Shown: in pieces, positions 12,085 to 63,943 of the stretch
Position numbering within the stretch: position 1 is the first letter of the stretch
Layout of the letters: each line of letters begins with the position of its first letter
NCBI GenBank assembly: GCA_011033025.1
Contig: WFMF01000007.1
Coordinates: 1,054,001-1,118,000 of the forward strand
Reading direction: 5' to 3'
Source: Beroe forskalii
Lineage: Eukaryota > Ctenophora > Nuda > Beroida > Beroidae
DNA: 64,000 nucleotides
Translations under genes and position numbers: made by a program
The notes under the pieces: generated by a model
Seen by the model: only the letters and a program-made list of their open reading frames with translations
What the model was told of the DNA's origin: nothing
The model's database searches: none

Positions 12085-13948
12085 TTGCAGCATTTGAAAA
12101 AAATACATAGAAACAGAAAATTCTCTTTAAAAATGGTACCATTTCTGAATTAGTTCAAAATTCCTCAACAAAAAATGGTACCATTTGAGAAGGGGGAAAA
12201 TCCTCGACAAAAGTTATACCATTTCCAAAGAGGAGCAAATATTCTCAACAAAAATACCAAACAGAAATGGTACCATTCCAGGAAAGGGTTGAAAATCCCC
12301 AACTAAAATGGTCCCATTTCGGAAAGACGTAGAAAATCGTCAATTAATTGGTACCATTTCAGAAAGGGTCTAAAATACCAAACAGAAATGGTACCATTTC
12401 AGAAAAAGGGTCGATTGTCCTCAACTTAGAATTAAATGGTGGGTACCATTTCAAAAGTGGGTCAAAATCCTTAGCAAAAAATGGTATCATTTCAGAAAAG
12501 AATCGAAAATCCTCAAAGGGTCGAAATCCTCAATTGAAATAGTACCATTTCAGAAAAGATCGATTGACCTCAACTTAAATGGTACCATTTCAAAATTGGA
12601 TCAAACATCCTCATGGAAATTGGTACCATTTCAAAAAAAGGTCGAAAATCCTTACCTGAAACGGTACCATTTGAGGGAGAGCCGAATATCCACAGTACCA
12701 TTTCGAATTTCGAAAGATAATCGAATTTTCCGACCGAAAAACGGCGATTTTTATCAGTTTAGCCTCCCTTAACCCCCATAAACCCCGAAAGATTTAACCC
12801 CCATTTGACAATTTTAATATCCACCTGGGGTTTTTCGAAGTTGCCCCCCCATTACTTGTTTAAGAAGGTAGGAAACTCTGACTTGAGTCATTTCGCTTTT
12901 AAAAATAAAATATTATGAAAAGAAAACAAAGATGTCAGTCTTTGATATGTAATTATAGATGCCACACCACAGTTCAATAATTTGTTCTCGAGGCAACGAT
13001 ATATTTCTAAACCATTGTCAGTCATTAGCACCCCTCATACATTCATACTCAGCTGACGACAATAACCATATGATTTTCGAAAGCTTCTGATTTTTAACTT
13101 TCTCGTACCATTCAAACGTTTTCAACTTGCTCCCGAATAAGTTCACGATGTGATTGTAGTCTCTCAATCTCTCATTATGGTAGCTGCTGAACTGAGTAGG
13201 ACCACTTCGTGTACCTCTTCGTCGTGTGCTGTGCGTAACAGAGTGATATCTGGGTTGGTCGCTTCTGCCAGCTCCTGAAGGCATTATAATTTGATAATTT
13301 CTATCATTCTTAATATATGATGATCACTAAGCTCCCAGAAGAAACTGATAACAATATAACGAGACTTATTACGAAACAACTTCGGAATAATTCAAGTGAT
13401 CACTTGCACAGTGAATCAAAGACGAAGTCCAATATGGTATAATCAATAGTCATATCCCAAGTAAATTGCAAAAAATGTTAAAAATTGTGAGCGTGACAGG
13501 AGATTTCGTAAGTCAAATTACCTTCACAACCATCGCTCTTCAGAAGCTCACAACAGAGTCCCTACCAGCTAAGGCCCCCTAGCTAAGGAACAGGTTGAGG
13601 GTCCTCTGATTAGTTTGATGCAGGCATTGTTGCATCCATCCAATCTTCGCCACCTTGTCTTTCTGTAATTAATGGATGAAAATGTACTTCAGATGGCATA
13701 TTGGACAGTAAGTGAGTAAAATAGATAGAGACTTGGTAAACTTTATGTTTAAGTTTTTTAACTATACTACAGTAGGTATTACCACTGTTTTTGCAAATAT
13801 GATTATCTATCCTATACTTAGTCCTTGATGGGAGGCCCTTTTAACAGATTTTAAATTTGACTTGGTGCCTACCCTCAGCACATCCCAGATGCTTCATTAT
13901 ATAACCCAGAGAAAAATATATTTTACGTTTTGTGCTGTAAAAATTTAT
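12085..13948. repeat. Segmental duplication copy B, first part
   Basis: Near-identical to 1,113-2,668 plus 4,919-5,163 of copy A. The first 770 bases are the left-truncated GGTACC-palindrome element (right end near 12,850, flanked by ATTACTTG on that side only). Its left edge coincides with the right end of the 4.4-kb foldback, so the foldback end is the breakpoint of the duplication. B lacks the GAATTC foldback of A. Confidence 0.85.
13018..13284 (-). CDS. Short conserved ORF of unknown function (MPSGAGR), copy B
   Basis: An 88-aa ORF whose first 72 residues equal those of the copy A ORF; B then reads on for 16 codons because a stop present in A is changed (a C for T difference at the end of the shared part). 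No domain is recognised. The difference in C-terminus between two recent copies argues that the end of the protein is not constrained. Confidence 0.3.
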   Translation of the reverse strand: MPSGAGRSDQPRYHSVTHSTRRRGTRSGPTQFSSYHNERLRDYNHIVNLFGSKLKTFEWYEKVKNQKLSKIIWLLSSAEYECMRGAND

Positions 13949-14062
13949 GGCATAATAGGCCGCGAACTTTAGTTCGCCGCGAACCCGGGCGAACTCAGGC
14001 GAACCCGCGCGAACTCCGCGCGGGTTCGCCAGCGTTCGCCGACAGTTCGCCAATTTTTTTCC

Positions 14063-14350
14063 TTGGCGAACTCCGCTGAAGTTCGCCGAGAGTTCGCCAG
14101 ACGTTCGCCGAACTCCGGGCGAACTCGAGCGAACTCAGGCGAACCCGCGCGGAGTTCGCCGCAAACTGGCGAACTAGTTCGCCGCGAACTTGTTCGCAGC
14201 GAACTTAAAATTTTTGGTTGGCGAACGATTGTTCGCCGGCGAACAATCGTTCGCGGCGAACTAGTTCGTGGCGAACAAGTTCGCGGCGGACTAGTTCGCC
14301 GCGAACTAGTTCGCCAAGAACTAGTTTTTTCTAAGTTCGCAGCGAACTAG
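14063..14350 (+). other. Repeat-derived ORF in foldback arm (not a gene)
   Basis: The 95-aa frame (SGRTRANSGEPARSS, RRELVRSEL repeats) is open on plus here and on minus in the mirrored arm at 15,127-15,345. The open frame comes from the 6-bp GTTCGC period (two codons per unit) and not from selection. It is listed only to prevent miscalling. Confidence 0.6.
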
Positions 14351-14457
14351 TTCGCGGCGAACTTCATTATTCATTTTATGCTGCGAACTTGTTTGTCATC
14401 AATTATAACAATTCCGCTGCAAACTGCCAAACTAGTTCACCTCGAACGATTGTTAAT

Positions 14458-14670
14458 GTTTGCCAACCCAAACCCTAACCCGAATCCAAACGCGAACCCA
14501 AACCCGAACCCAACCCCTAACCCTAACCCTAACCCAAACCCTAACCCAAACCCTAACCCAAACCCTAAACCAAACCCTAACCCAAACCCTAACCCAAACC
14601 CTAACCCAAACCCTAACCCAAACCCTAACCCAAACCCAAAACCTAACCCAAACCCTAACCCAAACCCTAA
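14458..14670. repeat. Telomere-like CCCTAACCCAAA array
   Basis: A tandem run of AACCCTAACCCA, about 12 bp per unit, resembling degenerate (CCCTAA)n. It resumes at 14,997-15,027 after the nested MITE. The array gives Pro-Asn, Gln-Thr-Leu and Gly-Phe-Leu repeat ORFs in several frames, which are not genes. The minus strand is G-rich and could form quadruplexes. Confidence 0.9.
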
Positions 14671-14996
14671 GGGGCCATCTATAAACTTAAAGGACGTCCG
14701 CAATGAGGGGGGAGTCTGGCCAATGCGGACGTTTGCGGACATAGGGGGAGGGGGTGTTTGGTCAAATGCGGACGTCCGCAATTTTTGGAAGTTTTGGTCG
14801 ATTTGACGGTTATTTCACAAGAAAATCGTGAAATTTCGGACCCAGAATGATGACTCAAAAGATTTTTAAGAAAAGTGCGGACGTCCTGGGGGAAGGGAGG
14901 GGTTTCTGAAATGCGGACGTTTGCGGGCAAGGGGGAGGGAGAGGTCTAAAATGCTCGAAATTTTGCGGACGTCCTTTATAGTTTATGGATGGCCCC
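14671..14996. mobile_element. Nested MITE, GGGGCCAT ends, TSD TAA
   Basis: Ends GGGGCCATCTATAAACT and, reversed, GGGGCCATCCATAAACTATA, with AAAGGACGTCCGCA inside, are flanked by TAA at 14,668-14,670 and 14,997-14,999. It interrupts the telomere-like array, whose phase resumes after it. The 3-bp TWA target and GGG-start TIR fit PIF/Harbinger MITEs. Related copies: 53,605-53,924 and, more distant, 5,564 and 15,866. Confidence 0.85.
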
Positions 14997-15459
14997 TAAC
15001 CCAAACCCTAACCCAAACCCTAACCGAAGGCGAAGGGGTCAGACAACGTCGGACAAGAGTTCGCCGCGAACTAGTTCGCCGCGAACTTAGAAAAAAGTAG
15101 TTCGCGGCGAACTAGTCCGCGGCGAACTAGTTCGCTGCGAACAAGTTCGCCGCGAACGAGTCCGCCGCGAACTCCAAAAATCGTTCGCCAACCAAAATTT
15201 TAAGTTCGCTGCGAACAAGTTCGCGGCGAACTAGTTCGCCAGTTTGCGGCGAACTCCGCGCGGGTTCGCCTGAGTTCGCTCGAGTTCGCCCGGAGTTCGG
15301 CGAACGTCTGGCGAACTTTCGGCGAACTTCAGCGGAGTTCGCCAAGGAAAAAATTTGGCGAACTGTCGGCGAACGCTGGCGAACTCGCGCGGAGTTCGCG
15401 CGGGTTCGCCTGAGTTCGCCCGGGTTCGCGGCGAACTAAAGTTCGCGGCCTATTATGCC

Positions 15460-16655
15460 AAATTTATAATTGAATTGAATTGAATTGAATAAAGTAAAAA
15501 TATATCAATAAGCATCGTACCTGATACTTAAATGCAAGCAAGCATCGTTTCTTCTTAACTGTATGACACGCAATTCTCTGGCAACTGATACCGGAAAGAG
15601 TAATTGTATGATTTATCAAATTGGCTCAACTGAGGCAAGAAACATAACTCAACAGTCAACAGTATGAAAACTGAATTTGATGAAGATGCTTGATTGCCTG
15701 ATTGGATTAACATCAATTTTTGAGGTTTCACATCTACGACCATTTGCAACTTGTTCCAAGGCATCCATAAGCAAGTAGTGCAATCATTTTAGAAAATGCA
15801 AAATCCATGGTTTACCATGGGGATTTCTCACGTAAGTGGTCTTAGGAAGTCATGAAAAGATTCTAGGAAAAGCCATCCATAAAGGACATCCACCAAATTT
15901 CGGACATTTAAGTCCCCTTCCTCACCCTTGTCCGCAATCCAAAACCCCCATCTCCAGACATCTACATTTTTCTCAAAAACGACTAAATTCTTTGAAAATC
16001 AACACAGAATCCATCAAAATTTCGGAAAATTACTGACGTCCACATTTGGCCATACTCCCTCCCCCTATGTCCACAAACATCCACATTGGTCAGAGTAACC
16101 CTCCCCCCATTGTGGACGTCCTTTATGGATAGTCCCTAGTTGGAATAAAGAATTATGCAACATACTTACCAGTTCATTGTTGTCATATCTGTGTAGGAAA
16201 CATCACTGCTATCATGAGAATGGCAACCATGCATCCTCCACACTCTAGCACATCATTTCTCCAAGCCTATAAACACTTCAGCACTGGCTACACTTGGCAC
16301 TGGCTACAGGATAGTTTTGGTGTGAACAGGATAGTTTTGGTGTGAACAATCATGAAAAACATACTCATTAATAATAATTATTTGGTTTTCCCAGTCCCAT
16401 GTTAAGTGTCAGGCTATTCATACAGCTAGATGCTCCAGGTGAGTAGACTAAGCTACAACAAGCTGAAAAGCTATTCTTCCCTCTAAAAGCAACTAAAGAT
16501 TGTGACAAACAGCCTAGTGGCAGAACACAGTCAGCAACTTGCCAGTCTTGAATTTCAGAACCCATGAATCATGTCTCTATAATGGAGTACTATTTGCATT
16601 AGGGGCATGATTTCAGATACATCTGCATGCTTGTCTCAGACTCTCAAAGTTAATA
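15460..16655. repeat. Segmental duplication copy B, second part
   Basis: Matches 5,164-6,355 of copy A with small differences, such as a 16-bp class tandem duplication of GGATAGTTTTGGTGTGAACA at 16,310-16,345 that A lacks. No gene is seen; the small ORFs at 15,555 and 16,368 are not family members I recognise. Confidence 0.8.
15866..16135. mobile_element. MITE, CCATCCATAAAGGAC ends, TSD CTA (copy B)
   Basis: The same element as at 5,564-5,831, with CTA at 15,863-15,865 and 16,136-16,138. Its presence at the same place in both copies shows it inserted before the A/B duplication. Confidence 0.75.
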
Positions 16656-20064: not shown

Positions 20065-21935
20065 AAATTAGCCTCCATTAGCCTCCATTAGCCTCCATGG
20101 AGGCTGAGTGGAGCCTGAGTGGAGGCTAAGTGGAGGCTAATTTCAAAAATTAGCCTCCACGGAGGCTAATGGAGGCATGAGGCTAATTTTTGAAAAATAG
20201 CCTCCACTATGGAGGCTATATTAGCCTCCACTAGCCTCCATTAGCCTCCACTAGCCTCCACTCAGCCTCCACTCAGCCTCCATGGAGGCTAAAATTTTGG
20301 TTTAGCCTCCACTAGCCTCCACTAGCCTCCACTAGCCTCCACTAGCCTCCACTCAAGAATTAGCCTCCATTAGCCTCCACAGAAATTTAAAAAGTCATTT
20401 TTGTGGAGGCTAAAGCCTCCATATGGAGGCTAATGGAGGCTAATGGAGGCTGAGTGGAGGCTAAGTGGAGGCTGAGTGGAGCCTAAATCAATAAGCCTAC
20501 AAAACACAAATTTCTTGCTGAAAATGGTGATTTATGTGTACTAATGTGAAAAACAATATATAGCTTCAAACTTTCAGACAGCTCCAACTGTCCTACACTC
20601 AGCCTCCACTAGGCTCCACTCAGCCTCCACTCAGCCTCCACTAGGCTCCACTCAGCCTCCACTAGGCTCCACTCAGCCTCCACTAGGCTCCACTCAGCCT
20701 CCACTAGGCTCCACTCAGCCTCCACTAGGCTCCACTCAGCCTCCACTAGGCTCCACTCAACCTACACTAGCCTCCACTCAGCCTCCACTAGGCTCCATTC
20801 AGCCTCCACTAGGCTCCACTCAGCCTCCACTAGCCTCCACTAGGATCCAATAGGCTCCACTAGCCTCCACTAGGCTCTACTCAGCCTCCACTAGCCTCCA
20901 CTAGGCTCCACTAGGCTCCACTAGCCTCCACTCAGCCTCCACTAGGCTCCATTCAGCCTCCACTAGGCTCCACTCAGCCTCCACTAGGCTCCACTCAACC
21001 TCCACTAGCCTCCACTAGGCTCCACTCAGCCTCCACTAGGCTCCATTCAGCCTCCACTAGGCTCCACTCAGCCTCCACTAGGCTCCACTCAGCCTCCACT
21101 AGCCTCCACTAGGATCCAATAGGCTCCACTGGCCTCCACTAGGCTCCACTCAGCCTCCACTAGCCTCCACTAGGCTCCACTAGCCTCCACTCAGCCTCCA
21201 CTAGGCTCCATTCATCCTCCACTCAGCCTCCACTAGGCTCCACTCAACCTCCACTAGGCTCCACTCAGCCTCCACTAGGCTCCATTCAGCCTCCACTATG
21301 CTCCACTCAGCCTCCACTAGGCTCCACTCAGCCTCCACTAGGCTCCACTTAGCTCCACTAGCCTAGTGGAGCCTAGTGGAGGCTAGTGGAGCCTGAGTGG
21401 AGCCTAGTGGAGGCTGAGTGGAGGCTAATGGAGGCTGAGTGGAGGCTGCGTGGAGGCTAGTGGAGGCTGAATGGAGCCTAGTGGAGGCTGAGTGGAGCCT
21501 AGTGGAGGCTGAGTAAGCCTAGTGGAGCCTAGTGAGCTGAGTGGATTCTAGTGGAGGCCGAGGTGCCTAATACTAGCTGGATTAGAAACTTTGGTCTATG
21601 TTACAAAATGTACTCTTTTTGTAAAAACATGACATGAATTTAATTTTGTGGAGGCTAGCATATTATCTGTGTTTTTTCATGATTTTAGCCTCCATTTGGA
21701 GGCTATAGCCTCCACTAGCACTGTCAAAATCGCTTCCATAGAATCCAAAAAATGACTTTTTAAATTTCCGTGGAGGCTAATGGAGGCTAATTCTTGAGTG
21801 GAGGCTAGTGGAGGCTAGTGGAGGCTAAACCAAAAATTTAGCCTCCATGGAGGCTGAGTGGAGGCTGAGTGGAGGCTGAGTGGAGGCTAGTGGAGGCTAA
21901 TGGAGGCTAGTGGAGGCTAATATAGCTAATTTTTG
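20065..21935. mobile_element. Foldback made of CCTCC satellite with CCATGG palindromes
   Basis: Left 20,065-20,470 and right 21,660-21,935 are inverted relative to each other (AATTAGCCTCC against GGAGGCTAATT), with matching interior text (CAAAAATTTAGCCTCCATGG type and TTTAAAAAGTCATTTTTG type). The centre, 20,590-21,360, is a tandem array of about 21 bp, CAGCCTCCACTAGGCTCCACT, and then the strand flips at 21,362-21,550 to AGTGGAGGCT. Junctions carry the palindrome AGCCTCCATGGAGGCT. Single-strand folding of the whole element is predicted. No target duplication is clear and no transposase is present. Confidence 0.8.
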
Positions 21936-29665: not shown

Positions 29666-32650
29666 TTACTAGAGTAGCAGAGAGGTGTTGAGTATGCACT
29701 TCATTGTCCACGGAATTTCTCGATGGAGGGTCTTTTGTTATTCAATTCTGAGCAAGAATCATCTAGGTACGCAATTCAAAAACGTATTATGAACCCTGTG
29801 GGGCCATTTTTCTAATCGCCCTCAGGCGCATAGGCTGAAAATTCATATCTCGGTCCAGGAAGGTCGTAGAGACTCCATCTTGTGCTTAAACGAATCGCAA
29901 TTGCCATGTTTTTATACAATTGTTCATGAAGATATGCCTTAAAATGCACAGGAAAAAAGTTTTGGGCCAAAAACTGTTTTTCACCATTTAAAGCGAGCCA
30001 TTCATCAACAAAATTTTCATATCTTGGTCCACAAAAGTCGTAGAGACTTCATCTTGGGCTCAAAAGAATTGCAATGGCCACATTTCTATACAATTTTTCA
30101 TAAAGATATGTTCTAAAATGCTCATGAAAAAAGTTTTCGGCCAAAACTGATTTTTCCACCATACGTGAGCTATTTATGATCAAGGGAAGCTTCATATCTC
30201 GGTCCAGGAAAGTCGAAGAGACTTCGTCTGGGGCTCAAACGAATCTGAGTGACCACATTTTTATGCAGTTTTTCATGAACCTTTGTCCTTAAATGCACAG
30301 GAGGGGGTTTTTGGGCCAAAAACTGTTTTTTCGCCATATATGAGCCATTTATCACCAGTGGAAGTAAAATATATCGGTACAAGAAAGCCTCGGAAGCTTC
30401 ATCTAGGGCTTGAGCAAATTGCAATGGCCTGGCTATTTTAAAATATATAATAAGACTTATTAATAAATTACTCTCATCAATTTATACATCTGAATCCCTG
30501 TGAAGACTATAAGTATATATCCCTGTAAAAGTTATATATTGCTTCAATGACTGTACAAGGGTCTTGGTAAGGTATGATAAATACCAAGGTGCTCCAAATT
30601 TAAGGTCACTGGAATGGCTTGAATGTATTGAACCAATTATCAATTTTGCAACGTAACAATAGTACATAAATGTGAATTGTGGTGATACTCAAGATGATGT
30701 GGAGATGTGGCATTCTGAATGCTAAAGAGAGATCCTGTATTACTACTGTTATGCTCCTATTGAAGATCCTTCCTACTAAAGCAGTGAAATTATCATGAAA
30801 TAGATAAATGACTCATTGCATCCAGGACAATATTTTCTCTTGGAAATGTGTTTATTAATTAAAGTCTTGAATACCCTGAATCTTGAGCTCATTAACAAGC
30901 TACACTCTATGAAATGCGTTGTTGTCAGTAGTATTAGAATCGGAAAGGTGAACTGCCAAGGTTACCTTGGCTCGTTTACCGCTTTCATGAGTGAGGATTT
31001 GTCCAATCAGACTTGAACCCTGGATGTCGTGAATGACAGACCGCACAATTCTTATCCACTCAACCAAGCGCAGGATGAGGTTTTTTTGCAATAAGGTTCA
31101 TTTATTGAATGCCACTTCTGTGATGGGACTGACCTTAAATTCTTAAATTGGAGCACTTTTTGCATAAATCATACCATACCAATGTATGTAGTTAAATTGG
31201 AGCACTTTTGGCATTAATCATCCCATAACAATGTATGTACTTATGAACAGTCATTTTAGGCTTCAAATATTCCAGTCTTTTAGGGGCCCAGATATCCAGA
31301 TATGTAAAAATTGCCCTTAATACAACTTGTGTGAGGTGACAACAACAGTTTTTGGCCTATGTTTAGAGCGATTAGAGGCATAGGCTTATCAACAAGTAGT
31401 ATACATGATATTAAAATGGCCATTGGAAGTCACTTGAGTTCAAAATGAAGTTTTTACGACCATTCTTTTGGGGCATATGTTATAGACAATTGTATAATAA
31501 CAAGGCCATTACCTCATCACGAATCATTTGAGCCCAAGACGAAGTCCATGCGACTGTCCTGGACTAAGATATGAAACTACTGCTGATCATTAACAGCTCG
31601 TGTATGGTGAAAAACAGTTTTTGGCCCAAAGGCAAAACGTTTTTCCTGAGCCTTTTAGGGCATATAATGCTCATGAAGAACTGTATAAAAATATAAAAAT
31701 ATCACCATTGCAATTCGTTTGAGCCCAATATAAGGTCTACACGACCTTAAATTTGGAGCTCCTTGTTATTTATCATACCATAGCCTGAACTTTGTACAGT
31801 CATTGAAGCCAAATATAGCCTCTACAGGGATTCATTGATAAAAGCAATCAATCATTCAATCAATATGTCGTATACATATAAAAATGAATATTGCAATTCC
31901 CTCAAGCCCTAGATGAAGTCCCTAAGGCTTTCCAGTACCGAGATATGAAACTTCCACTGGTAATAAATGACTCATATATAATGGTGAAAAAACAGTTTTT
32001 GACCCAAAACTTTTTTCCTGTGCATTTTAGGACAAAGGTTCATGGAAAATTGCATAAAAATGTGGCCATTCTGATTCGTTTGAACCCCAGACGAAGTCTC
32101 TACGACTTTCCTGGACCGAGATATGAAGCTTCCCTTGATCATAAATAGCTCGCGTATGGTGGAAAAATCAGTTTTTGGCCGGAAACTTTTTTCATGAGCA
32201 TTTTAGAACATATCTTTATGAAAAGTTGTATGGAAATGTGGCCATTGCGATTCTTTTGAGCCCAAGATGAAGTCTCTACGACTTTTGTGGACCAAAATAT
32301 GAAAATTTTGCTGATGAATGGTTTCGCTTATGGCGAAAAACAGTTTTTGGCCCAAAACTTTTTCCTGTGCATTTTAGGGCATATCTTCATGAACAATTGT
32401 ATAAAAACATGGCAATTGCGATTCGTTTAAGCCCACGATGAAGTCTCTACGACCTTCCTGGACCGAGATATGAATTTTCAGCCTATGCGCCTGAGGGCAA
32501 TTAGAAAATAGGCCCCACAGGGTTCATAATACGTTTTTAAATTGCGTACCTAGATGATTCTTGCTCAGAATTGAATAACAAAAGACCCTCCATCGAGAAA
32601 TTCCGTGGACAACATAGTGCATACTCAACACCTCTCTGCTACTAGAGTAA
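29666..32650. mobile_element. 3-kb foldback built from the ACGAAG module
   Basis: The outer 190 bases are inverted copies: GCAGAGAGGTGTTGAGTATG on the left mirrors CATACTCAACACCTCTCTGC on the right, continuing through GGAATTTCTCGATGGAGGG and AACGTATTATGAACCCTG. Inside, each arm carries four to five modules of about 150-180 bp with TCGTAGAGACTTC, CAAACGAAT(C/T)GCAATGGCC, GATATGCC..AAAATGC and AAAACTGTTTTT. This is a diverged version of the module of the 7,672-12,084 element, so the two elements are related. The centre (about 30.45-31.4 kb) is unique and includes a tRNA-like sequence. Module ORFs at 30,170-30,424 (minus) and 31,891-32,148 (plus) are mirror copies of each other. No transposase and no clear target duplication. 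Confidence 0.75.
31005..31075 (-). ncRNA. tRNA-like sequence (tRNA-derived SINE head or tRNA pseudogene)
   Basis: On the minus strand TGGTTGAGTGG (31,056-31,066) fits the pol III A box, and GGGTTCAAGTC (31,010-31,020) fits the B box, about 46 bp apart as in tRNA genes. The T stem pairs at four of five positions, but the acceptor stem does not pair, so it is not a functional tRNA. It most resembles the head of a tRNA-derived SINE whose body would run to lower coordinates; I cannot define its tail. It lies in the unpaired centre of the 3-kb foldback. Confidence 0.55.
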
Positions 32651-33500: not shown

Positions 33501-34035
33501 TACGACAATTAGGGTGCGCCCTTTTTTTGAAGTTTTTTGGGCACAATTCCTCACTGGTAGATCTCGACGAGCTGATCACGAATATATCAAGTTTTTTGAA
33601 ATTGGACAATGTCTTCCTTGTCCGCAGGGCGTTTTTGTGTTTCGTGACGTCATGTCACGTGTCATGTCACGTGACCCGTCTGCTAGTACTTTGTGCGCTG
33701 GTTGCTTCCGCGCGCGCGATTGTTATACTGTGCGCGTTCGCGGATCTGTGGTCTGCTGGCAGAGTAATTACAGACGATAGGCATATTTTTTGGTAGTGGG
33801 TACAAGGTACCACAATTCAGGCAACTTTGTATGCTATAAATACTTAAAAAATTCGAATTTGTTTCTTTGTTGCTTATTAAATAAGCGGATCCGCTTAGCT
33901 CAGCGATTTCTAGTCTGCTTACTTGGTCAAGTAATGATCAGCCAAGTACCAACTTTGATTGATTCGTCGATATGATCCTGATTACATCACGCCGATAGGT
34001 TTTTCGGTCTGATGGTGATATGACTATAAGTATAT

Positions 34036-34672
34036 GAGATCGCCGAGCTTAGCGGATCCGCTACGGCTAAGCTGAATCTCCGAGCTTAGCAGATCCGCTA
34101 AGCTGAATCTCAGAGCTTAGTGGATCCGCTAAGCTGAGTCTCCGAGCTCAGCGGATCCGCTAAGCTGAGTCTCCGAGCTCAGCGGATCCGCTAAGCTGAA
34201 TCTCCGAGCTTAGCGGATCCGCTAAGCTGAATCTCAGAGCTTACTCTTAGCGGATCCGCTACGCTGAATCTCAGAGCTTACTCTTAGCGGATCCGCTAAG
34301 CTGAATCTCAGTGCTTAGCGGATCCGCTAAGCTGAATCTCAGAGAGTCAGAGCTTAGCGGATCCGCTAAGCTGAATCTCCGAGCTTAGCGGATCCGCTAA
34401 GCTGAATCTCCGAGCTTAGCGGATCCGCTAAGCTGAATTTCCGAGCTTAGCGGATCCGCTAAGCTGAATCTCAGAGCTTAGCGGATCCGCTAAGCTGAAT
34501 CTCAGAGCTTAGCGGATCCGCTAAGCTGAATCTCCGAGCTTAGCGGATCCGCTAAGCTGAATCTCAGAGCTTAGCGGATCCGCTAAGCTGAATCTCCGGG
34601 CTCGGTGGATCCGCTAAGCTGAATCTCCGAGATTAGCGGATCCGCTTTGCTGAATCTCAGAGCTTAGCGGAT
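34036..34672. repeat. 31-bp satellite, left arm
   Basis: About 20 units, each a 22-bp perfect palindrome centred on GGATCC (AGCTTAGCGGA and its mirror) plus a 9-bp asymmetrical spacer GAATCTCAG or GAATCTCCG. The spacer is the only part that gives the array an orientation; it reads in reverse in the right arm. Confidence 0.92.
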
Positions 34673-35113
34673 TCGTCGATTCGATCATCGATTCGATTCG
34701 TCGATTCGATTCGTCGATTCGATTCGTCGATTCGATTCGTCGATTCGATTCGTCGATTCGATTCGTCGATTCGATTCGTCGATTCGATTCGTCGATTCGA
34801 TTCGTCGATTCGATTCGTCGATTCGATTCGTCGACTCGATTCGTCGATTCGATTCGTCGATTCGATTCGTCGATTCGATTCGATTCGTTGATTCGATTCG
34901 ATTCGTCGATTCGATTCATCGATTCGATTCATCGATTCGATTCGTCGATTCGATTCGTCGATTCGATTCGTCGATTCGATTCGTCGATTCGATTCGTCGA
35001 TTCGATTCGTCGATTCGATTCGTCGTTTCGATTCGTCGATTCGATTCGTCGATTCGATTCGTCGATTCGATTCGTCGATTCCAATCGTCGATTCGATTCG
35101 TCGATTCGATTCG
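34673..35113. repeat. 13-bp core array GATTCGATTCGTC
   Basis: About 34 units in one orientation across the symmetry centre of the foldback. A short stretch has CATC or TTG variants, including 34,880-34,935. The array is open in most frames because 13 bp is not a multiple of three and has no stop, giving Asn/Arg/Ile/Glu/Ser and Ser/Ile/Arg/Phe/Asp repeat ORFs that are not genes. Confidence 0.92.
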
Positions 35114-35925
35114 TCTTAGCGGATCCGCTTAGCTCTGAGATTCAGCTTAGCGGATCCGCTAAGCTCTGAGATTCAGCTTAGCGGATCCGCTAAGCTCGGA
35201 GATTCAGCTTAGCGGATCCGCTAAGCTCGGAGATTCAGCTTAGCGGATCCGCTAAGCTCTGAAATTCAGCTTAGCGGATCCGCTAAGCTCGGAGATTCAG
35301 CTTAGCGGATCCGCTAAGCTCTGAGATTCAGCTTAGCGGATCCGGCATCCGCTAAGCTCTGAGATTCAGCTTAGCGGGTCCACTAAGCTGAGATTCAGCT
35401 TAGCGGATCCGCTAAGCTCGGAGATTCAGCTTAGCGGATCCGCTAAGCTCGGAGATTCAGCTTAGCGGATCCGGCATCCGCTAAGCTCTGAGATTCAGCT
35501 TAGCGGGTCCACTAAGCTCGGAGATTCAGCTTAGCGGATCCGCTAAGCTCGGAGATTCAGCTTAGCGGATCCGCTAAGCTCTGAGATTCAGCTTAGCGGA
35601 TCCGGCATCCGCTAAGCTCTGAGATTCAGCTTAGCGGATCCGCTAAGCTCTGAAATTCAGCTTAGCGGATCCGCTAAGCTCGGAGATTCAGCTTAGCGGA
35701 TCCGCTAAGCTCGGAGATTCAGCTTAGCGGATCCGGCATCCGCTAAGCTCTGAGATTCAGCTTAGCGGATCCGCTAAGCTCTGAGATTCAGCTTAGCGGA
35801 TCCGCTAAGCTCTGAGATTCAGCTTAGCGGATCCGCTAAGCTCTGAGATTCAGCTTAGCGGATCCGCTAAGCTCGGAGATTGATCAGCTTAGCCGTAGCG
35901 GATCCGCTAAGCTCGGCGATCTCAT
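35114..35925. repeat. 31-bp satellite, right arm
   Basis: About 26 units of the same 22-bp GGATCC-centred palindrome with the spacer reversed (CTGAGATTC or CGGAGATTC). Several units carry a GGATCCGGCATCC variant that recurs at intervals (35,340; 35,470; 35,605; 35,730), so this arm expanded by multi-unit duplications after the arms separated. Confidence 0.9.
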
Positions 35926-36457
35926 ATAGTCATATCACCATCAGACCGAGAAACTTATCGGCGTGATGTATATGTAATCAGGATCAATCAAAGTTGGTAG
36001 TGGTACTTGGCTGATCATTACTTGACCAAGTAAGCAGACTAGAAATCGCTGAGCTAAGCGGATCCGCTTATTTAATAAGCAACAAAGAAACAAATTCGAA
36101 TTTTTTAAGTATTTATAGCATACAAAGTTGCCTGAATTGTGGTACCTTGTACCCACTACCAAAAGTTATGCCTATCGTCTGTAATTACTCTGCCAGCAGA
36201 CCACAGATCCGCGAACGCGCACAGTATAACAATCGCGCGCGCGGAAGCAACCAGCGCACAAAGTACTAGCAGACGGGTCACGTGAGATGACACGTGACAT
36301 GACGTCACGAAACACAAAAACGCCCTGCGGACAAGGAAGACATTGTCCAATTTCAAAAAACTTGATATATTCGTGATCAGCTCATGCTCATCGAGATCTA
36401 CCAGTGAGGAATTGTGCCCAAAAAACTTCAAAAAAAGGGCGCACCCTAACGACAATT

Positions 36458-60487: not shown

Positions 60488-61025
60488 TCATTCTTTCCTC
60501 TTCTTTATTGTAGATGTCTTCTTTCTTGACTCATCTGAATCGGTGTTGCTCAAATTCTGCTTCGGGAATCGAATGTTCATAATTCTGTGGACATATATGG
60601 AGAAGGACATCATTAAATCCTTTTGGAACAGTGCTGTCAATCGACCTGGCTCCCAGGATATCAGTGCTGACTTAACTTCTTCTTCCAGTGCTAAGCGCTG
60701 TGGATGATAGTTGGGACAGCTAACAAGGAAGTGCTGTTCGTCCTCGATGATAGGGTCGAAGAACGGTAGGTGGGAAAGTCCCTCTGCTGATGGGTCAGAG
60801 CAGATTTTGCAGCATTTTCTCCAGAATGTGGACTGTGAAAGGACGCTCTCAGCTATTGTACTCGGTGACCCAGCTCTAGGCTGTGACATATATCTCCCTG
60901 TCTCGCAGTTAAGGTTATGGTTACTGGCTCTGAGCTTAGTGAGATATCTTCGTTTGTTGTAATCCTCAATTGTGAGTTAGTCTTCAAAGCATAGTTCTTT
61001 TTTGACCATAGAGTAAAAGTTCAAT
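60488..61025 (-). pseudogene. LINE C-terminal domain (zinc knuckle), broken
   Basis: After the RT frame ends, another minus frame continues the protein: YLTKLRASNHNLNCETGRYM (K/F-R-x-S-x-H-x-L-x-x-E-x-G-R-Y pattern) and then CKIC, about 20 residues later H-F-L-V-S-C, i.e. a C-x2-C...H-x4-C zinc-binding motif, followed by PNYHPQR. This block follows the RT in many LINE ORF2 proteins. A frameshift near 61,025 separates it from the RT, and an in-frame TAA lies just upstream of the LTIEDYNKRRY part at about 60,977. The 133-aa ORF 60,488-60,889 is the intact remainder. Confidence 0.8.
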
Positions 61026-62898
61026 TTACTGTAAAGAGGCATTGTGACTCCCAGGTACTGAGAAACTGATTTTGTAGTGTCATTCTTCCTTCTAACGGGG
61101 TGATGGTGCCAGACATGTTTAATGCTGTCTTGAGGTCGTTGAGGCTGTTGAACCAGCTTAGAGAGAGGTTCTGCTGTTCAATATAGGCATTTCCTGCAAG
61201 CGTTTCAGTGCTACTTGCTGAAAGAGTCTGGAGCCTTTTGACATAGTCGAGAACCTGATTGGAGACTTTAATTGCCAGGGGGAATCTGCCTGTGTCACCC
61301 CAGCAAACTAGGTTGGTGGCTTTAGAGGACAGTCCAAGGGTCCATTTCAGGAGTTTGAGATGGATGTTCTCGAGAGGGTCATTCGAAAGTCTTGTAATAG
61401 CTTTTCTTGGGTCCACAAGCCAGGCATGGTTTTTCACAGTTTTGAAGAGGTTTGTGTCAAGCAGCCAGATTTGACATCCATAGGTGACAATTGGTAGAAT
61501 AAGGGAGTCAAATAAACGGAATAGTGAAGCTACTGTGAGGCATCTGGTGTCTACCATGCGCTTAAGGGAGAAGTAGGCCCTGAGACCTTTAGTTTTTAGC
61601 TCCTTTTGGGCTCTGCTGAAGCTACCACTGAGTGTGTAGATGATGCCTAAGTAACAGTATTCTCTAGCTGACTGCACTTTCACGTTTCCATAACGGAGCC
61701 CAAAACTGGTCTTGAGTTGCTTTCCCGATTTGTTGAAGACGAGAGTGGCTGTCTTTGACATGTTAACTGTTAAGCCCCATGTGGAACAAAAGTCATGGAC
61801 AGTGTTCAGGAGACTCTGCAGAGAATCTTTGTTTAATGCTAGGAGAACTAGGTCGTCAGCCCAGAGGAGGTGAGTAACTCTTCGTGAATTCAGGAGTGGT
61901 GCATCGACATTCGATTTGCTGTCTAGGAGTTGTGAGAGTTCACGAAGGTAAATTTTAAAAAGTTCTGGGCTCATTGGGTGACCCTGCTCTGTACCTACAT
62001 GGACATCAATTGCATCAGAGACTTTGTGGATCAGTTTTATTTTGGCCTTTGAATTTGTGTACATGTGACGGAGGCAGTTGAAGAACTTTCCGTTAACTCC
62101 AAGATTGGTAAGTTTGTAGAGGAGTGCCTCTCTGCACACGGTGTCAAAGGCTTTCTTGAAGTCTATGAAGCAACTAAACAAATACTCCCCATTTTGAAGC
62201 TGTTTTTGGATGCATGTGTTTAACACAAAGCTATGGTCACTAGTCTGTGCATTCTTGCAGAACCCAAGTTGGTTGATTGGGTCTGGGCAGAATAGGTTTC
62301 TGAAGCAGATCAGTCTTTCTAGCAGGATATTAGCAAATAGTTTGCCGAGGTTACTACCAACAGCAATAGCACGGTAATTATCTGGATTGTATTTATCCCC
62401 CTTTTTGTGCAGCGGGGTGACAAGGGCTACGTTCCACGGATAGATTCCATTGTCCAAACATGCATTGAAGACCCTACCAATGCATTTAAGGAGAAGAGGA
62501 CTGCTGTTCTTCAGAAATTCGTTGGTCAAGCAGTCTTCAGATGAGGCTTTGCCAACCTTAAGCTTCTTGATATTGCTAGATAGTTCTTCTTCAGTGATGC
62601 TCTTATTGAGAGTTTCGTCGAGGCTTTTTAAGTTTTCCTGAGCCGTTGTGTAGGCCTCAGCCAAATCTGCAGTGACATTATCTGGCAATGCTTTCTGAGC
62701 ATAGAGATCTTTGAAGAACTCGTAGAAGGTGACCAGGTCTTGGAGGTCCATTGTTTGTGGTTCGTTTCTGAAGGACTTGAGCTTCTTGAATTCAGACCAG
62801 TTAATGGTCCTATCTCCATTTATTCTGCGGTTTAACTTCATAAAGAACGACCCTTTCTTTCTCTTCAGAATTTTTCTGTATTCCTTTTTTTTGCTCAT
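61021..62898 (-). CDS. LINE reverse transcriptase ORF (625 aa)
   Basis: The frame encodes a full RT domain. Seen in order: KASSEDCLTNEFLK (residues 117-130), LVTPLHKKGDKYNPDNYRAI (159-178), FIDFKKAFDTV with catalytic Asp 246 (motif A), GTEQGHPMSPELF (302-314, motif B, usually QGxPxSP), LLWADDLVLLA with the catalytic Asp pair at 348-349 (motif C), then GLTVNMSKT. Downstream, the thumb region runs to the stop after CLFTVN. All three catalytic Asp are kept. It copies LINE RNA at nicked target DNA. The Met at residue 1 is not the natural start: a one-base shift in an A-run at about 62,885 separates it from the upstream linker, whose frame continues the same protein. Clade cannot be fixed by eye; WADD in place of F/YADD is a useful marker. 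Confidence 0.93.
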   Translation of the reverse strand: MSKKKEYRKILKRKKGSFFMKLNRRINGDRTINWSEFKKLKSFRNEPQTMDLQDLVTFYEFFKDLYAQKALPDNVTADLAEAYTTAQENLKSLDETLNKSITEEELSSNIKKLKVGKASSEDCLTNEFLKNSSPLLLKCIGRVFNACLDNGIYPWNVALVTPLHKKGDKYNPDNYRAIAVGSNLGKLFANILLERLICFRNLFCPDPINQLGFCKNAQTSDHSFVLNTCIQKQLQNGEYLFSCFIDFKKAFDTVCREALLYKLTNLGVNGKFFNCLRHMYTNSKAKIKLIHKVSDAIDVHVGTEQGHPMSPELFKIYLRELSQLLDSKSNVDAPLLNSRRVTHLLWADDLVLLALNKDSLQSLLNTVHDFCSTWGLTVNMSKTATLVFNKSGKQLKTSFGLRYGNVKVQSAREYCYLGIIYTLSGSFSRAQKELKTKGLRAYFSLKRMVDTRCLTVASLFRLFDSLILPIVTYGCQIWLLDTNLFKTVKNHAWLVDPRKAITRLSNDPLENIHLKLLKWTLGLSSKATNLVCWGDTGRFPLAIKVSNQVLDYVKRLQTLSASSTETLAGNAYIEQQNLSLSWFNSLNDLKTALNMSGTITPLEGRMTLQNQFLSTWESQCLFTVN

Positions 62899-63493
62899 AG
62901 TAACCTTCTCGGTTTTCCTTGGTGGGGGTTTTGCTGGCCCGTTTTGCTGACTTGTTAGTTTTACGCTTGGCCTTCCGACATTCTATGTCGAACCAACAAG
63001 CTTTATTGTGATGGTTGCTTTTAGGCAAAACTTTTTTCCTTTCTAGTGTCTTGTCAGCCACCTCCTGAATAATATTGATGAGCTTGGCATTGTCAGAGTA
63101 GACTTCTTTGGGGGTCTCAGGAGCTTTGGAGCATAGAAGGTTCATCTTAGCAATGATACTTGGATTACTTTGACCCTTGATAAACTGTTTTGCTGATTCG
63201 TTGCCCTCAGCCTTCCATTTGTAACCCAAAGGAACGTCAGCATAGTCAGATTCTTTCAGCCCTATGCGTAGAGTTGAGATACTGGGGGCTGCAAGTTGGC
63301 AGATGAGAGGTTTGTGGTCAGAGATGTTGGTCAAGTCTTGAATCTTCAGTGATGAGATTGTGTTTAGTAACCCATGTGAAGCAAGGATATAGTCAACAAC
63401 ACTTTGGCCTCTGTAGTTGATACAGGTGAAGTCACCAAGAACATCTCCTATGACTGTCCCGTTGATGATTTTAGCATTGTGCAGTGTCGCCAG
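62810..63493 (-). pseudogene. LINE endonuclease C-terminus and linker, frameshifted
   Basis: The minus-strand frame from 63,493 reads LATLHNAKIINGTVIGDVLG, DFTCINYRGQSVVDYILAS and then NISDHKPLICQL. These are the last motifs of an APE-type endonuclease (G-x-x-x-G-D...T, S-V-x-D-Y-x-L-x-S, and the catalytic SDH). The N-terminal half with the catalytic Asn/Glu is missing through 5' truncation. A 140-residue Lys-rich linker follows (CWFDIECRKAKRKTNK), then the A-run frameshift at about 62,885 into the RT frame. The first Met (63,334) is internal to the domain, so the annotated start is the truncation point. Confidence 0.85.
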
Positions 63494-63943
63494 TTCTAAC
63501 TTATAACGTTCTGAAGTTTAATTTGCGAAAAAGAATCGAAATTCTGCGATTGCTGTCAGTTTCGATGCGTTCACTTTCAAAACAAGTGTTTATGCGGAAA
63601 AAATTAACTAGGATGCGTACACTTAATATCTTATGGTTCACTTCTCCCTCCTTGCGAAAATCAGGCCCAGCAATACAACAGCAAATGGCGACGCGAAAAC
63701 TTTCGAATTCATTGCGAAAATACCGTGCTAGTACCTTGTGTGCCATTTGGCTCGCGCGAAAATCAGAACTAAAACGGCGAAAAAATTAAATTTTATTTAC
63801 GCGCGCGTGACGATTATTTTCGCAGAACGTGACCAGGATGCGTACGCCATGTTGCAGCGCGAAAATTTTAATGCAGGTGCGAAAATTTATACACAGGCGC
63901 GTAAATATCGCTGCGGATGCGACCGCCGGCTTGAACAGGTGCC
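63494..63943. repeat. GCGC-rich outer end of right arm
   Basis: Reverse complement of 37,443-37,893. Open frames occur on both strands here and in the left copy (for example MAHKVLARYFRNEFE on minus), with few substitutions. The peptide shows no domain and equal openness of both strands argues against coding. Confidence 0.7.

Follow-up and report, generated by a model that had tools for sequence, protein, structure and literature searches.

The FB elements of Drosophila are flanked by 9-bp target site duplications, and their long arms consist of short sequences repeated in tandem, some of them 31 bp long; these repeats are not known to form palindromes. The family described here resembles FB, by description, in its duplications and in its long arms of short units. 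Target duplications of 8-11 bp are given for the Mutator (MULE) superfamily (PMC6446971), and three further systems invite comparison. Tm1, a Mutator/Foldback family of root-knot nematodes, has inverted repeats that are composite, vary in length and contain tandem units of 13-15 bp; its duplications are mostly of 9 bp (8-10), and its non-autonomous groups share their ends with a copy encoding a FLYWCH-plus-MULE (Phantom) transposase (PMC3169594). Tetris, a foldback transposon from Drosophila virilis that its describers placed in Mutator, has arms with a terminal domain and tandem repeats, a non-coding middle that varies, and duplications of 8-10 bp (PMC4079207). Rehavkus elements have 9-bp duplications and satellite DNA in their inverted ends, and live in animal hosts (PMC10218199, PMC6446971).

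The ctenophore Beroe forskalii harbours a family that shares the repeat-filled arms and the duplications of these systems and looks like a new member of this known kind, the foldback Mutator elements. Its representative in the 64,000-nucleotide stretch analysed here (the window) is very probably a non-autonomous foldback element of the MULE superfamily, mobilised by the MULE transposase of other copies. The original prediction could match its structure to no described element, a statement that is not supported, since Tetris and Tm1 share the composite-arm plan. The differences lie in detail. The termini of Tm1 are different (asymmetric, 7-bp), its units measure 14 bp, and a palindromic 31-bp unit is not reported in the accessible part of its description, the sequence comparison being limited to motif C (PMC3169594). 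The 220-bp units of Tetris share a stretch with its terminal domain (PMC4079207), whereas those of the ctenophore family share nothing beyond chance with theirs. Rehavkus is set apart, by description, by its PHD-finger transposase lineage and by the 164-bp unit found in a beetle (PMC10218199, PMC6446971). No published description of the family was found in a search outside of which lay Repbase and most subscription journals, and the papers containing the letters of the ends or of the 13-mer were unrelated by title among the matches listed. The family overturns nothing known. It provides useful material for comparing how the arms of transposons give rise to satellite DNA and disperse it, with related ends joined to two unrelated kinds of repeat-filled arms within one family. 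The element of the window is organised as follows:

33510..36448, no strand: whole element, 2,939 bp, starting with TAGGGTGCGCCC and finishing with GGGCGCACCCTA
33502..33509, no strand: left target site duplication ACGACAAT, 8 bp
36449..36456, no strand: right target site duplication ACGACAAT
33510..33779, plus strand: left terminal part common to the family, about 260 bp
33510..34046, plus strand: left outer arm, outside the 31-bp array, with a lone palindrome near 33884
34047..34672, plus strand: left array, made of 31-bp units that join a 22-bp GGATCC-centred palindrome to a 9-bp spacer
34670..35115, plus strand: central 13-bp array, unit GATTCGATTCGTC, in a single orientation
35116..35916, minus strand: right array, made of 31-bp units with the spacer in the opposite direction and showing a higher-order period of 131 bp
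35917..36448, minus strand: right outer arm
36179..36448, minus strand: right terminal part common to the family

The original prediction had set the bounds by duplications at 33502-36457 and had read these as 9 bp long with arms of 520 bp. The duplication is 8 bp, the ninth letter, a T, belonging to the element itself, which begins with T and ends with A as do all 29 complete copies of the family, where duplications are of 8 or 9 bp. The outer arms ahead of the arrays measure about 535 bp each and, read off the sequence, are near mirror images; a self-BLAST paired the inverted arms from 33509 with those ending at 36449, and a 383-bp block (33569-33951 versus 36001-36383) is 99% complementary. 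The predicted inverted-repeat element with flipping arrays of a 31-bp palindrome and spacer was borne out by BLAST, Tandem Repeats Finder (TRF) and exact word counts. TRF delimited 18.9 copies of the 31-bp unit on the left (34066-34672), 24.1 on the right (35108-35881) and 34.6 copies of the 13-bp unit between them (34670-35115). Exact 22-bp palindromes number 9 on the left and 17 on the right. The spacers GAATCTCCG and GAATCTCAG occupy the left array and their reverse complements the right one, so that polarity flips, while the core contains the 13-mer 25 times forward and never in reverse. The right array includes units broken up by GGCATCC. Since TRF gave the right array its 131-bp period and assigned none to the left, the 31-bp palindrome and spacer may have been amplified separately and array growth may have been independent in each arm. 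In single-strand folding, two segments from the 31-bp arrays did far better than shuffled sequences (z -10.1 and -10.6) and one from an outer arm slightly better (z -2.4); the 13-bp core did no better (z +1.9).

The end pattern, with up to two mismatches, occurs at 207 places in the 216-Mb genome, and a reversed-pattern control at none; the exact pattern with a leading T was counted at 69 and 113 places. Copies were drawn from matches to the ends, 100 of the 207 places among them. All facing pairs of ends less than 10 kb apart among these matches, chosen without regard to duplications, gave 29 complete copies including that of the window; ten one-ended loci, L019 (one end truncated), half of a 21-kb pair (L048) and 11 further facing pairs with exact T-preceded ends lie outside this set. 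The further copies with duplications that the original prediction called for are thus present: target duplications are exact in every complete copy, 16 of them 8 bp and 13 of them 9 bp long. All 29 start with TAGGG and finish with CCCTA, and all have inverted ends, from 184 to over 2,000 bp by BLAST with satellites included. Duplications within 8-11 bp and long terminal inverted repeats agree with the MULE superfamily, and long inverted tandem-repeat arms around a variable middle agree with a foldback element. The family is large, and the exactness of all 29 duplications makes it look young. A terminal arm has its partner as closest relative in six copies out of 29; the ends of one copy thus do not appear to be homogenised, a point against the MULE foldback reading.

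Two kinds of arm are found behind these ends. Fourteen of the 29 copies contain the palindrome core GCGGATCCGC (window, L009-L017, L034, L035, L038 and L041), and the other 15 lack it. In 13 of these 14 it is accompanied by one or more 13-bp units (one in L034, three in L041); L017 has none. In L012 and L016 the 13-bp units run in reverse through the left half and forward through the right; the non-flipping 13-bp centre noticed at first therefore holds for the window copy and fails as a family rule. Ten palindrome-less copies were run through TRF (L030-L033, L036, L037, L039, L042, L044, L047), and nine have a 20-bp unit, forward then reversed, L044 showing a short 15-bp relative only. The other five (L029, L040, L043, L045, L046) were judged, from those of their repetitive reading frames that were listed, to be likewise of the 20-bp kind. 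The 20-bp array is unrelated to the palindromic units. The locus L061 has an outer arm of the 20-bp kind, whose first ~240 bp are 78-84% identical to the palindromic kind.

An exact 18-bp palindrome core occurs at 34 sites in the genome: 28 in the window copy, five in other complete copies and one on C769, just inside a further family end. That the palindrome was captured from a satellite elsewhere in the genome is not supported, the 18-bp core sites being confined to the family. Only the window copy was seen to have a long array of it; since a related 32-bp unit is repeated 3.7 times in L017, it is the long array and not the unit that makes the window copy special. The other satellites are not confined to the family: the 13-bp unit has 1,064 exact matches, the first of which, as listed, include arrays on C1, C24 and C176 that are distant from any listed end, and the 20-bp unit has 65, of which 28 on C225. 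Arrays away from ends may be independent of the family or belong to copies whose ends have decayed. It is conceivable, if rather doubtful, that one type of end is associated with interchangeable satellite arms (palindromic units of 18 to 32 bp with a 13-bp array, or polar 20-bp units), the family repeatedly making or capturing, amplifying and spreading short repeats, with palindromes as hairpin-forming or protein-binding modules.

Alternatively, the arm units could be additional sites for transposase binding, favoured by selection for mobility; this has been proposed for Galileo and Tetris, but for the present family we give it little credence. Both kinds of copy do have repeat-filled arms, and the 31-bp unit and motif C of Tm1 share GATTCAG and a second 6-bp word (shuffle P 0.0035), a weak, post hoc likeness that was the best of four units, the others giving P 0.53-0.80. 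Against this, the units are unrelated between the two kinds of copy, and the words shared by the 31-, 13- and 20-bp units with the terminal repeat are no longer than with shuffled ends (P 0.33, 0.22 and 0.86). Derivation of the satellite units as copies of the end sequence was rejected on the same comparison.

The assignment to the MULE superfamily draws on coding remnants. A Pfam search yielded 46 MULE matches in the genome. One of them, on C367 (stretch L061), is situated 1.5 kb inward of a family end; at 27.7 bits, its open piece just exceeds the Pfam cut-off of 27.6, and it is broken by a stop, after which the domain continues weakly (E 0.04). The DNA of L061 outside this piece is that of the family, with 1,131 bp 93% identical to L045 and 1,129 bp 95% identical to L036, then a repetitive stretch 72-83% like the inner parts of L010, L013, L014, L015, L034 and L035; in the longest alignments, this likeness stops 10-16 bp before the MULE piece. 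The piece has 24 matches in the genome, of which one is placed by coordinates inside a facing pair (C658:396567-405095) and another 1.0 kb inside an end on C225. The MULE sharing family ends that was sought from the outset may thus be represented by pieces on C367, C658 and C225, the three MULE loci found by eye inside a family end within 10 kb, using the exact T-preceded ends (for one of the two sets, 100 of the 113). Nearness to copies alone is weak evidence, because one MULE relative, on C325, lies 5.5 kb outside a copy.

A FLYWCH match stands beside MULE in the relatives of the C367 piece on C390, C153 and C458, an arrangement known from Phantom transposases, and another lies 1.35 kb inside an end on C183. 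The closest relative, a 331-aa frame on C99 that is 66% identical to the C367 piece, has no FLYWCH among the matches listed. The transposase acting on the family is probably of the Phantom type. No intact transposase was found inside a complete copy among the sequences read, and Pfam gave nothing above cut-off for five frames of L016 and L017. A 244-aa frame is also present inside a family end (L018 5036-5767, minus strand), with parts in L017 (2027-2647, minus strand) and 31 matches in the genome; no Pfam family exceeded the cut-off (Ac81, E 0.08), and an accessory protein or a captured host gene are candidate readings.

Mobilisation by another superfamily (P, like Galileo; hAT; or Merlin), with MULE pieces captured or nested, is unlikely. 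Target duplications are 8 bp long for hAT and P, the latter including Galileo with its P/THAP transposase, and 8-9 bp for Merlin. The 8/9-bp length by itself thus also fits other superfamilies: the TAGGG start with 8-bp duplications suits hAT or P, 8-9 bp suits Merlin, and the MULE evidence is fragmentary. However, 13 of the 29 copies have 9-bp duplications, against 8 for hAT and P, and MULE pieces at three same-type ends are joined by the FLYWCH match inside the C183 end. The presence of MULE pieces within such ends and of further copies with duplications supports the original classification as a MULE-like foldback. For such a MULE foldback, a transposase from other copies would act in trans on the conserved ends, and the element would be inserted at cuts staggered by 8-9 bp. 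Its coding sequence would have been lost from a MULE-bearing ancestor whose outer parts became the arms, and these may have grown by amplification of short repeats through slippage or unequal exchange, perhaps aided by hairpins.

Movement left traces in two paralogous empty sites, for L010 and L035, in each of which the duplicated sequence stands once. Put together, the two flanks of L010 match L060 twice across the junction, at 92% and 84%, the latter match being gapless at the junction with a single CTGAAACTT. Those of L035, joined likewise, are 87% identical to a flank of L044 in which CAGGATAT stands once, mismatches following immediately. Candidates for L009 consisted of two alignments, both poor at the junction. 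In total, 44 of 709 matches spanned a junction, many of them inside tandem arrays (L042, L043) and thus uninformative. The family inserted precisely, with duplication of 8-9 bp. A chance inverted duplication with local satellite growth and no transposon, for which the restriction of the long palindrome array to the window copy might speak, is ruled out for practical purposes by the 207 ends, the exact duplications in 29 of 29 copies and the empty sites.

Other repeats share the window. At 20193-21924, an inverted repeat with flipping 10- to 21-bp arrays of the CCTCCACTAG type is bounded on the outside by a direct repeat of 11 bp, GCTAATTTTTG; elsewhere in the genome, L042 of the foldback family sits in a similar array. 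The inverted repeat at 13938-15468 has arms of ~426 bp, 92% alike, composed of GTTCGCGGCGAAC-type units around telomere-like AACCCTAACCCA arrays. That at 29666-32650 has 947-bp arms, 86% alike, with 175-bp units, and a quick test found no target duplication there. Arms of 451 bp, 97% alike and 26.5 kb apart at 37441-63948, enclose nested inverted pairs with 35-bp arrays. Judged by eye, retroelement frames of the window have an animal-like character, and two long frames on the minus strand at 61021-63517 resemble the reverse transcriptase and endonuclease of LINE-type elements.
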